Of a DNA stretch of 64,000 nucleotides, positions 6,625 to 45,786 are shown in pieces (position 1 is the stretch's first letter; each line of letters opens with the position of its first letter). The stretch is taken from contig NZ_RKLR01000001.1 in NCBI RefSeq assembly GCF_019599465.1, positions 248,001-312,000 of the forward strand. The letters run 5' to 3'. The position numbers were made by a program, and so were the translations under genes. Origin of the DNA: Haloarcula rubra. Its GTDB lineage: Archaea > Halobacteriota > Halobacteria > Halobacteriales > Haloarculaceae. The notes under the pieces were generated by a model, which worked only from the letters and a program-made list of their open reading frames with translations, did not search any database and had not been told where the DNA came from.

Positions 6625-7446
6625 TCAGTCTAGCAGTTTCCGGACGACCGAGAACGCGGCGTCGCGCCACCGGGCGGGGACGTGCCGTGCGAGCAAGAGG
6701 AGTTTCGCACCCTCGCCCACGGGATAGCGAGGGGCGGGGTCGCTGGCGTTGGCGGCGTCGCGGACGGTCAGCGCGACGGCCCCCGGCGTCACCGAGACGG
6801 CGTCCCTGACGCCGGCGAGGCGCGAGTCTTCCTGTGCCTGATAGAGCCAGTCGTACGCGCCGGTCTGTTCGGCGTTCGGTCCTCGTTCCGCTTCGTCGTC
6901 GCCCGCCGTCTGAACGGGGCCGGGTTCGACGACGACCACGTCCACGTCGAACTCCGCGGCCTCGACGCGGAGCGCGTCGCTCAGTCCCTCGACGGCGAAC
7001 TGTGAGGCCGCGTAGCCGCCCTGTCCCGGGAGCGAGAGGCGGCCCGCGACGCTGGAGACGGAGACGACGGTCCCGTTCTCGCGAGCGCGCATGTGCGGCA
7101 ACACCTCTCGGACCATCCGGTGGGTGCCGAGCAGGTTGCGGTCGAACTGCGCCTCTAGCTCGGCCGTCGAGACGTCCTCGACGGCTCCGAACTGGGCCGT
7201 CCCCGCGGCGTTCACTAGACAGTCGATGCGTCCGGCCTCGTCGACCACGTCCTCGACGACACGTTCACACTCGCGCGCGTTCGTCACGTCGAGTTCGGCC
7301 GTCTCACAGCCGTCCTCGGCGAGGGCGGTCAGGTCGGCCTCGTCGGCGGCCGTCGCCCACACGCGCCAGTCGTCGTCCAGAAACGCCTCGGCGGTCGCGC
7401 GGCCGACGCCGCCGGCCGCGCCCGTAATCAGCACCGTCTTGGCCAT
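6625..7446 (-). CDS. Short-chain dehydrogenase/reductase-like protein with degenerate active site
   Basis: A 273-residue Rossmann protein of the classical SDR family. The cofactor motif TGAAGGVG is at about residues 8-15 and NAAG follows near residue 78. The active-site serine is S132 and the tyrosine Y145, but the lysine of YxxxK is replaced: the sequence reads Y145-A-A-S-Q149. That lysine normally lowers the tyrosine pKa and holds the nicotinamide ribose, so activity is doubtful or the protein has another role. The codon is CAG, one base from AAG. The substrate is unknown. It may share a transcript with nothing: the next minus-strand gene upstream starts 867 bp away. Confidence 0.85.
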   Translation of the reverse strand: MAKTVLITGAAGGVGRATAEAFLDDDWRVWATAADEADLTALAEDGCETAELDVTNARECERVVEDVVDEAGRIDCLVNAAGTAQFGAVEDVSTAELEAQFDRNLLGTHRMVREVLPHMRARENGTVVSVSSVAGRLSLPGQGGYAASQFAVEGLSDALRVEAAEFDVDVVVVEPGPVQTAGDDEAERGPNAEQTGAYDWLYQAQEDSRLAGVRDAVSVTPGAVALTVRDAANASDPAPRYPVGEGAKLLLLARHVPARWRDAAFSVVRKLLD

Positions 7447-7500
7447 GGCAGGCCCGACACACCCCGGGCAATTAAGCCCACCCGGTCGCGGTCGGCCGGC

Positions 7501-42953: not shown

Positions 42954-43039
42954 ACGTGGGACGTTCCCGTGGACGCCGATAAATGGACCGGTGCCGTCAG
43001 ATGAAAAGGAACTTGTCCGTCGGTGGTGTCGCCCCCGGT

Positions 43040-44008
43040 ATGAAAGCGATAGTCCTCGCCGGTGGGTACGCGACGCGACTGTGGCCGGTCACGAAACACC
43101 GGCCCAAGATGCTCCTCCCGGTGGGCGACTCGACCGTCATCGACCGGATTCTCTCCGACCTTGAATCCGACGACCGCATCACGGACATCTTCGTCAGCAC
43201 GAACGAACGCTTCGCCGAGGACTTCGAAGACCACTTCGCCGAGAACGGCTACGAGAACGTCTCCCTGACCGTAGAGGACACCACAGAGGAAGACGAGAAG
43301 TTCGGCGTCGTCGGGGCACTGGCCCAACTCGTCGACCGGGAGGGACTGGGCGACGACGACCTGCTGGTCGTCGCGGGCGACAACCTCATCAGCTTCGACA
43401 TCTCGGAGTTCGTCGACCACTTCGAGGCGTACGGTGACCCGACACTGGCGGCCTACGACGTGGGGTCCTTGGAGAAGGCCAAGTCCTACGGCCTCATCGA
43501 GACGGAGGGCGACGAAGTCGTCGACTTCCAGGAGAAGCCCGACGACCCGAAGAGCACGCTCGTCTCCATCGCCTGCTACGCCTTCCCCGCGGACGCCATC
43601 CGATTCGACGAGTACCTCTCGGAAGGCAACAACCCGGACGAACCCGGCTGGTTCATCCAGTGGCTCGTCGAGAACGGCACCGTCCGGTCCTTTACCTTCG
43701 ACGAGGCGTGGTACGACATCGGCACGCCCGAGAGCTACCTCGAAGCCGTCGGCTGGGAACTCGGAGGCGAGAACGTCGTCGCCGAGGACGCCGCTATCGA
43801 GAACACGACGCTGGGGGACAACGTCCACGTCCTCTCCGGCGCGGAAGTCGTCAACTCCAGTCTCGACAACACGGTCGTGTTCCCGAACGCGACCATCGTC
43901 GACGCCGACATCCGCAACTCCATCATCGACAAGGACACCCACATCGAGAGTCTGGACCTCGCCGGCGCGCTCATCGGCGCGCACACCCAGTTGACCAACG
44001 GCGGATAG
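43040..44008 (+). CDS. NDP-sugar synthase-like nucleotidyltransferase
   Basis: A 322-residue protein. The N-terminal nucleotidyltransferase domain has the signature KAIVLAGGYATRLWPVTKHRPKML-type start (first 20 residues carry LAGGYATRLWP), VVAGDN and FQEKPD. The C-terminal 90 residues form hexapeptide repeats (ENTTLGDNVHV and similar) of a left-handed beta helix. Such enzymes activate glucose-1-phosphate or mannose-1-phosphate for surface glycans. Substrate not defined by sequence. Confidence 0.87.
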   Translation: MKAIVLAGGYATRLWPVTKHRPKMLLPVGDSTVIDRILSDLESDDRITDIFVSTNERFAEDFEDHFAENGYENVSLTVEDTTEEDEKFGVVGALAQLVDREGLGDDDLLVVAGDNLISFDISEFVDHFEAYGDPTLAAYDVGSLEKAKSYGLIETEGDEVVDFQEKPDDPKSTLVSIACYAFPADAIRFDEYLSEGNNPDEPGWFIQWLVENGTVRSFTFDEAWYDIGTPESYLEAVGWELGGENVVAEDAAIENTTLGDNVHVLSGAEVVNSSLDNTVVFPNATIVDADIRNSIIDKDTHIESLDLAGALIGAHTQLTNGG

Positions 44009-44023: not shown

Positions 44024-44638
44024 TTAGGCCCTCTCCTCGAACAGCGTCGTCGCCAGTGCGCCCGCCAGCGCGATACCGGTCGAGACGGGAACGCTCGTCG
44101 TCGCCGCGTCGACGTCGTCGGCCCACACCTCGTACTCGCCGTCGTCCGCGAACACGTGGACGTAGCCACACACCTGTCGGTAGATGCGCTCTAGAGTCGG
44201 GTCCGCCTCGGGGTCGACGTGGTCGGAGACGCCGATAGAGACGACGGCGTCCGCGTGCGAGCGAGCGACACCGTCCGGCGCGACGCCGATTTCGACCGTC
44301 TCTTCCCACACCGGCGTCGTCGACCGGACCGTCCCGGGTTCGTCGCGCAGGAACGGGACGACGAGTGGGTCGAGCACGCAGACGTACTCCTGCCGGTGGT
44401 CGCTCCCGACGAAGGCGTGGCGGCCGTCGTCGGTCGTACACAGGTCCTCGGCCGTCGGGAGTCGCCCGTCTCGCGCCTGTTTGACCGCCCGCATCTCTCC
44501 GACCCACTCACCGGCCGTCTCGAGTGGGTCCGTCCCGAACAGCGTCCCCAGATTCGCCGCCACGTCCGGCGGGAGGGCGAAGTCGTCGAGGTCTAATTCG
44601 TGACCGAGTTCGGCCGCGTCGATAGTGTCGTCGGACAT
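44024..44638 (-). CDS. MerB-like organomercurial lyase
   Basis: A 204-residue protein. The C-terminal half resembles organomercurial lyase (MerB): C87 and D90 in YVCVLDPLVVPF match the Cys96/Asp99 pair and C157 in VCGYVHVFAD matches Cys159, so the whole Cys-Cys-Asp catalytic set is present. MerB breaks carbon-mercury bonds. The N-terminal half is a small helical domain as in MerB. No merA, merR or mercury transporter is nearby; instead an HxlR regulator with several cysteines diverges from it 77 bp away. It may act on mercury compounds or on another organometal/thiol substrate. Confidence 0.72.
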   Translation of the reverse strand: MSDDTIDAAELGHELDLDDFALPPDVAANLGTLFGTDPLETAGEWVGEMRAVKQARDGRLPTAEDLCTTDDGRHAFVGSDHRQEYVCVLDPLVVPFLRDEPGTVRSTTPVWEETVEIGVAPDGVARSHADAVVSIGVSDHVDPEADPTLERIYRQVCGYVHVFADDGEYEVWADDVDAATTSVPVSTGIALAGALATTLFEERA

Positions 44639-44660
44639 TGCGCCTCGACTTTGCTATGCG

Positions 44661-44690
44661 AAGTTATTAAGCTGTGAAGTCCAAAGTAAC
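44661..44690. promoter_or_regulatory. Divergent promoter between MerB-like and HxlR genes
   Basis: On the minus strand ttaataac (44664-44671) is 27-30 bp before the MerB-like ATG; on the plus strand aaagtaac (44683-44690) is about 30 bp before the HxlR ATG. The two boxes lie 11 bp apart, and aagtcc occurs twice near them, so one regulator could control both genes. Confidence 0.5.
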
Positions 44691-44715
44691 GGAGTAAGTC
44701 CACGGAGACGAAGCT

Positions 44716-45060
44716 ATGGAAGGATTCGACTGTGCCACCGACGACCCGCGGTGTTACTGCCTGCTCTCGGACGTGCTGGACCTGCTCGGTCGGAAGTACG
44801 TGATGGACGTCGTCTGCGTCGTCGCTGTCCACGGAACAGTCCGGTTCGGGACGCTGGAGGACCACATCCCGGAGGCGAGCACGTCGACGCTGTCGGCCCG
44901 TCTCGACGCGCTGGAAGCGGCCGGTCTGCTCACGCGGGAGCAGTACGACGAGATTCCGCCGCGCGTCGAGTACGAACTGACCGACGACGGCGCTGAGCTG
45001 GCCGAGCGGCTAGAACCGGTGTTAGAGTGGGCGCAGAAACGAGCGACGGCAGAGAGTTAG
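44716..45060 (+). CDS. HxlR-family winged-helix regulator with cysteine-rich N-terminus
   Basis: A 114-residue MarR-like winged helix of the HxlR type: LLGRKYVMDVVCVV, RFGTLEDHIPEASTSTLSAR, LTREQYDEIPPRVEYEL. Cysteines C6, C13 and C15 in the first 20 residues, plus C34, match the HxlR pattern in which an N-terminal cysteine senses electrophiles, and suggest metal or thiol sensing. It probably controls itself and the divergent MerB-like gene. Confidence 0.87.
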   Translation: MEGFDCATDDPRCYCLLSDVLDLLGRKYVMDVVCVVAVHGTVRFGTLEDHIPEASTSTLSARLDALEAAGLLTREQYDEIPPRVEYELTDDGAELAERLEPVLEWAQKRATAES

Positions 45061-45063
45061 CGG

Positions 45064-45786
45064 TTATTCGGCCAGCCACGCGTCCTCGACGACGATGCTG
45101 CCGCGCGTCCCGTCCCACTCAGTCTCGTACTCCAGTTCGATGCGCCGGTCCATGTGTGGGCCGTCGGTCACCAGCGTCTCGAACTCCCCGCCTTCCCCGA
45201 GGATGTGGACGCCGTACTCGTCGTTGAGCGCTTCGAGTTCGTCGAGTGCGTCGGCGTCGAGTCGGCGACCCAGCCACGACTCGTCCAAGCCGTAGGCCGC
45301 GACGCGGATGATGCGAATCTCGAAGCCGGCGTCTAACATCGCGTCGGCGAGGTCACGGGGGTTCTCCTGCCAGAGCGGGGCGAAGACGTTCGCCTCGAGG
45401 CGTTCGGCCATCGCCTCGATGCGAGTGGTCTGGTACTCACTCTCGACGGCACCAGCGGTGAGGCCGCCGACGCCGTCCGGCAGGTCCGCGTCGAGTTCGC
45501 GTAGGGCGGCCTCCAGCGGTTCGAGTTCCTCGTCGCCTTGCTGGCCCGAGTCCGCGACGTCGTCGGCCCCGAAGTCGTCGGGTTCGACCTCCAGTAGCGG
45601 GATGCCGATGCTCTCGGCGGCCAGCGAGGCCAGTCGCGTCGCCGGGACGTGGTACATGTAGGAGTCGCCCTCGGGGTGGACCGTCACCAGTCGCTCGACG
45701 GAGTAGCCGCGTTCGAGCGCACGGTACAGCGCCCACGAGGAGTCCTTGCCGCCGGAGAACAGCGAGACCCACGCGCCGTCTGTCAT
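45064..45786 (-). CDS. dph6: Diphthine--ammonia ligase (Dph6)
   Basis: A 240-residue ATP-pyrophosphatase with the loop SLFSGGKDSSWALY, the Dph6-specific ESEYQTTRIE, VFAPLWQENP, and HILGEGGEFETLVTDGP. It makes the last step of diphthamide on elongation factor 2, amidating diphthine with ammonia. Length and motif order match the archaeal family. It is read from the right, with the DUF373 gene 36 bp upstream. Confidence 0.93.
   Translation of the reverse strand: MTDGAWVSLFSGGKDSSWALYRALERGYSVERLVTVHPEGDSYMYHVPATRLASLAAESIGIPLLEVEPDDFGADDVADSGQQGDEELEPLEAALRELDADLPDGVGGLTAGAVESEYQTTRIEAMAERLEANVFAPLWQENPRDLADAMLDAGFEIRIIRVAAYGLDESWLGRRLDADALDELEALNDEYGVHILGEGGEFETLVTDGPHMDRRIELEYETEWDGTRGSIVVEDAWLAE

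Follow-up and report, generated by a model that had tools for sequence, protein, structure and literature searches.

A merB-like/hxlR gene pair of Haloarcula rubra as the probable organomercury branch of a mercury regulon scattered over the haloarchaeal genome

What is the role of a gene resembling organomercurial lyase (MerB) that diverges from an HxlR-family regulator in a stretch of haloarchaeal DNA holding no other mer gene? The window (the whole stretch analysed here, 64,000 nucleotides of Haloarcula rubra) raises this question, and a preliminary description of it had proposed a stand-alone system independent of MerA and MerR. Here, we relate the pair to the remainder of its genome and to a class scan of 391 haloarchaeal genomes, in which near relatives are counted in. 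On the evidence of sequence, we consider it probable that the pair forms the organomercury arm of a mercury regulon dispersed over the haloarchaeal genome, in which an HxlR thiol switch would replace MerR or ArsR. Genomes with MerB alone were known before; the novelty lies in the HxlR regulator, its operator and their link to both merA and merB. Christakis et al. (2021) reported, in the portion of their article drawn on here, merB-like genes in genomes lacking merA, about half of those with MerB, and MerB in only 11 archaeal genomes, for which that portion names no regulator (PMC8261052).

The gene pair and its MerB-like protein

Both reading frames lie where the preliminary description had placed them, divergent across a 77-bp gap, and their Pfam families are confirmed (Table 1). 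The pair occupies the same site between the nucleotidyltransferase gene and dph6 in six other Haloarcula species, with merB truncated in one of them (L026), and in many congeners without the pair these two flanking genes abut directly. Remnants are found in two further congeners, and the remnants and truncation taken together (L034, L208, L210 and L026) suggest repeated loss. Class-wide, a merB-like gene is present in 61 of the 391 genomes, at 70 places. The HxlR subfamily lies within 1.5 kb of 38 of these genes (30 divergent, 7 convergent and 1 tandem), and the other 32 are without it. Conservation of the pair, which had been proposed as a check, is thus borne out, and the shared site in six congeneric species together with the 38 of 70 linked genes rules out chance adjacency.

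Table 1. Coordinates of the gene pair, its promoter elements and its flanks within the window
Feature	Position	Strand	Remarks
Nucleotidyltransferase gene	42983..44008	+	Flank; boundary of the pair's insertion/deletion site
merB-like gene, organomercurial-lyase family protein	44024..44638	-	204 aa, ATG; Pfam MerB 49.4 bits
Codon of C157	44168..44170	-	Aligned with MerB C159; conserved 74/75
Codon of D90	44369..44371	-	Aligned with MerB D99; conserved 74/75
Codon of C87	44378..44380	-	Aligned with MerB C96; conserved 74/75
Codon of C67	44438..44440	-	Extra Cys in DLC motif of haloarchaeal homologues; 71/75
Divergent promoter region	44639..44715		77 bp between merB-like and hxlR start ends
Dyad box O1 GACTTTGCTATGCGAAGTT	44647..44665		Consensus TACTTYG-N5-CRAAGTA; mean 4.9/7 pairs (42 loci) vs 1.9 shuffled
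Conserved promoter core GAAGTTATTAAGCTGTGAAGTCCAAAG	44660..44686	+	27 bp; genome-wide motif search
TATA-like element TTATTAAG	44664..44671		Between O1 and O2; from sequence and conservation; putative role
Dyad box O2 AGCTGTGAAGTCCAAAGTA	44670..44688		Consensus TACT-N11-AGTA; mean 4.2/7 pairs
hxlR gene, HxlR-family winged-helix regulator	44716..45060	+	114 aa, ATG; Pfam HxlR 71.8 bits
Codons of C13-x-C15	44752..44760	+	Invariant in merB-, merA- and CC-protein-linked HxlRs
Codon of C34	44815..44817	+	Cys in all merB-/CC-protein-linked HxlRs, Ser in 31/31 merA-linked
dph6 (diphthine--ammonia ligase)	45064..45786	-	Other boundary; TIGR03679 265 bits

The MerB-like protein exceeds the Pfam MerB cut-off (49.4 vs 27 bits) and scores far lower than the NCBIfam MerB equivalog cut-offs require (49 vs 193 and 38.5 vs 200 bits). 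Its AlphaFold2 model, built from a 12-sequence input (mean pLDDT 89.5), matched only MerB structures when searched with Foldseek against the PDB at E ≤ 1e-3 (best E 1.9e-7, probability 1.0, TM about 0.5). Profile alignment to PDB MerB places C87 and D90 on C96 and D99, and C157 on C159, so the Cys-Cys-Asp triad is complete, as had been claimed. Its homologues retain it as well, a point on which the preliminary description had staked its proposal: the full triad is kept in 73 of 75 haloarchaeal rows (74 detected ORFs plus P0001 as reference, whose own ORF is among the 74), the exceptions being the truncated gene at L026 and one other gene, at L128. Compared with MerB of plasmid R831b (PDB 3F0O), the window protein shares the fold and the Cys-Asp-Cys triad, but it is about 20% identical, carries the extra conserved C67 and lacks the structural Cys117, with Thr108 at the aligned position. 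Cys117 is the signature by which Christakis et al. recognise canonical MerB, terming '117alt' proteins MerB-like (PMC8261052). Because this residue is absent and the equivalog cut-offs are not reached, we likewise class the window protein as MerB-like rather than canonical MerB. It is probably an organomercury-splitting enzyme.

Other merB-like genes differ in their surroundings. Elsewhere in this genome, a second stretch resembling MerB (L001/L020, G000:C34, about 7041-7472) contains the triad; it has no plausible N-terminal start codon, neither HxlR nor operator was found nearby, and it is probably truncated. A different merB-like group (L073, L075, L088, L090-L094) adjoins P-type ATPase and ABC transporter genes, without this HxlR. 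At L127 (G400:C4), a divergent merB-like gene lies in tandem 195 bp from merA, again without HxlR, so that both mercury-resistance genes are clustered.

The HxlR regulator and its link to merA

The regulator scores well above the Pfam HxlR cut-off (71.8 vs 20.8 bits) and its best PDB match is HxlR (E 8e-12); its Pfam and NCBIfam matches include no MerR model and hence no MerR-type helix-turn-helix. Of its four cysteines (C6, C13, C15 and C34), the last three occur without exception in the 45 HxlRs that reach the subfamily score at merB-like loci. The cysteine cluster noted earlier therefore stands for these three but not for C6, which is not conserved among the same 45 proteins and is ruled out as a member. 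A candidate N-terminal sensing cysteine is present, as C15 aligns with Cys11 of Bacillus subtilis HxlR, through which that protein senses formaldehyde (PMC7835342).

The statement that the pair occurs without other mer genes is true of the window only. On other contigs the same genome carries two MerA genes (526-527 bits vs the TIGR02053 (NCBIfam) cut-off of 454) with the CVNVGC motif ('GGTCVNVGC') and the C-terminal CC ('MSCCIE'). Each diverges from an HxlR paralogue, and these two, 57-58% identical to the window HxlR, are its closest relatives in the genome. As merA and merB lie on separate contigs here, they are not clustered under one regulator as in a canonical mer operon. The literature annotates merA and merB in a few haloarchaea. 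The class scan gave 59 haloarchaeal merA genes of the close type; 54 of them have a neighbour of the HxlR subfamily, always divergent and mostly with a 118-bp gap between the matches, and 92 of all 123 HxlR matches adjoin merA or merB. The earlier view of independence from MerA and MerR thus survives in part: no MerR adjoins the pair, but the regulator subfamily diverges from these 54 merA genes and the operator is held in common. Of the 61 genomes with a merB-like gene, 54 are without this type of MerA, which makes MerA-free operation possible there; the MerA query was one close type, and genomes scored as being without it may carry more distant MerAs.

A considerable share of the other HxlR matches adjoin a small protein that carries a vicinal CC pair and an N-terminal Cys. 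In many haloarchaea this protein (about 112 aa; L183:2584-2925, L171, L169, L216 and others) is encoded divergently from that HxlR type, with the operator in common; it is absent from this genome, has no Pfam, NCBIfam or PDB match, and is a possible Hg-binding partner.

When the HxlRs were sorted by divergent partner, C13, C15 and C34 occurred together in 34/34 merB-partnered and 19/19 CC-protein-partnered proteins, and all 31 merA-partnered ones combined C13 and C15 with Ser34 and had one more Cys, at most nine residues upstream of C13. The merA-linked regulators form one group in a tree of 94 HxlRs, separate from those linked to merB or the CC protein (94/85 support), although many inner forks of this tree are poorly supported. 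It could be, and we put this forward tentatively, that there are two kinds of three-cysteine site, each suited to its cargo: CxC with C34 would serve organomercury at merB and C-x(5-6)-CxC with Ser34 inorganic Hg(II) at merA, both acting through a common operator with the small CC protein as a third target.

A common operator at merA and merB

The gap between the two genes bears out the promoter region in common that had been described, since it holds a conserved core and dyad boxes. O1 and O2 are 19-bp dyads 23 bp apart, and the core overlaps both. The pattern GAAGTnnTTnnnCTnnnnAGTCCnAAG is common to the upstream regions of these hxlR genes: at least 12 of its 17 fixed positions are matched in 30/30 merA-linked and 43/45 other hxlR upstream regions, compared with mostly 9 or 10 in shuffles. 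Within the 4.67-Mb genome, the core pattern (≤3 mismatches) occurs at three sites, which are the window pair and both merA/hxlR pairs (reversed-pattern control 0).

Searching the 391 genomes (≤1 mismatch) gave 91 sites, with 5 for the reversed pattern. Most of them (82) are just upstream of hxlR. Seven are just upstream of merB, and these are exactly the seven loci at which merB and hxlR converge, where hxlR cannot share the promoter of merB. The best argument that the motif is part of merB control, and is not merely co-inherited with hxlR, comes from these seven separate merB sites. Of the remaining two sites, one lies upstream of a CC-protein gene beside a broken hxlR and one is a poor match that is unexplained. 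The likeness of the merA and merB promoters may derive in part from the common ancestry of their two hxlR genes. At one locus (L216:2742-3300), the operator is retained upstream of the CC protein next to an hxlR of which a fragment is left.

The proposed regulon and its alternatives

We assign the pair to the merB arm of a dispersed regulon because the merA genes neighbour the same regulator subfamily and the merA and merB promoters share the operator. As we envisage it, an HxlR dimer would bind O1 and O2 on either side of the TATA element, which probably serves both directions, and by blocking this element would keep merB and its own gene down. Once C13, C15 and C34 had bound or reacted with Hg(II) or an organomercurial, the grip on DNA would change and transcription would be released. 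The MerB-like protein would then convert R-Hg+ to RH and Hg2+ by way of its Cys-Asp-Cys triad, and MerA, supplied from the two other loci, where a paralogous HxlR accompanies the same operator, would reduce Hg2+ to Hg0. We infer repression rather than activation; activation by HxlR is possible, as the B. subtilis protein is an activator (PMC7835342).

The same cysteines would also fit a general electrophile or oxidant switch of the Bacillus HxlR/YodB type, with the MerB-like protein and MerA belonging to a broad thiol-stress response and mercury being one trigger among others. In other HxlR/DUF24 regulators, the same N-terminal cysteine does serve to detect electrophiles (PMC7835342), the nearest NCBIfam models to the window regulator are the redox regulators RrpA and RrpB, well below cut-off, and some relatives are partnered with the small CC protein, DoxX or other genes. 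However, the known targets, MerA and MerB, are mercury-specific enzymes, and an operator found only three times in the genome argues against a broad stress regulon; we therefore regard this reading as unlikely. Somewhat less likely again is a role of the MerB-like protein as metal chaperone or organometal binder, for example of copper, arsenic or tin compounds, with its lyase activity lost or changed. Its distance from characterised MerB, the missing Cys117, the extra C67 and some relatives that lie beside P-type ATPase and ABC genes and lack this HxlR would suit such a role, but the three catalytic residues are retained class-wide, a relative stands in tandem with merA (G400), and the clade of the window protein has its operator in common with merA. 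The original proposal of a pair that responds to organomercury independently of MerA agrees with the absence of other mer genes from the window and with the 54 of 61 merB-like genomes without this MerA type, but it is very improbable overall and is rejected for this genome, where two merA/hxlR pairs have the same regulator type and operator.

The regulon proposed here can be set beside known systems. Like the bacterial mer operon (merR-merTPAB), it combines Hg-specific MerA and MerB with a divergent regulator and an operator in the joint promoter (PMC3466566); unlike it, HxlR stands in the place of MerR, and merA and merB occupy different loci that each have an hxlR of their own. MerT and MerP were not seen beside the haloarchaeal merA or merB loci. 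In Sulfolobus merRHAI and archaeal arsR-merA, too, a winged-helix regulator governs an archaeal merA (PMC3466566, PMC3600143), although that regulator is of ArsR type and the one here of HxlR type. B. subtilis HxlR belongs to the same family and uses a cysteine of its N-terminal helix for sensing, but it is an activator that responds to formaldehyde via Cys11-Lys13 (PMC7835342), whereas the haloarchaeal protein combines CxC with a third Cys and would have mer genes as its targets. The mer regulators named in the literature covered here are of the MerR and ArsR types, plus MerD, and we found no link between HxlR and mercury in the open-licence literature.

If the proposal is right, haloarchaea would have a regulated mercury system working in saturated salt, with its regulator and operator named, and widely separated merA and merB genes would be tied into one system. 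Further, the cysteine placements would amount to a natural experiment on how organic could be told from inorganic mercury. Beside one merA gene (L131:1572-4534) we also observed a P-type ATPase with an HMA domain, together with an ArsR-like regulator that carries CEYC as well as other His/Cys residues.
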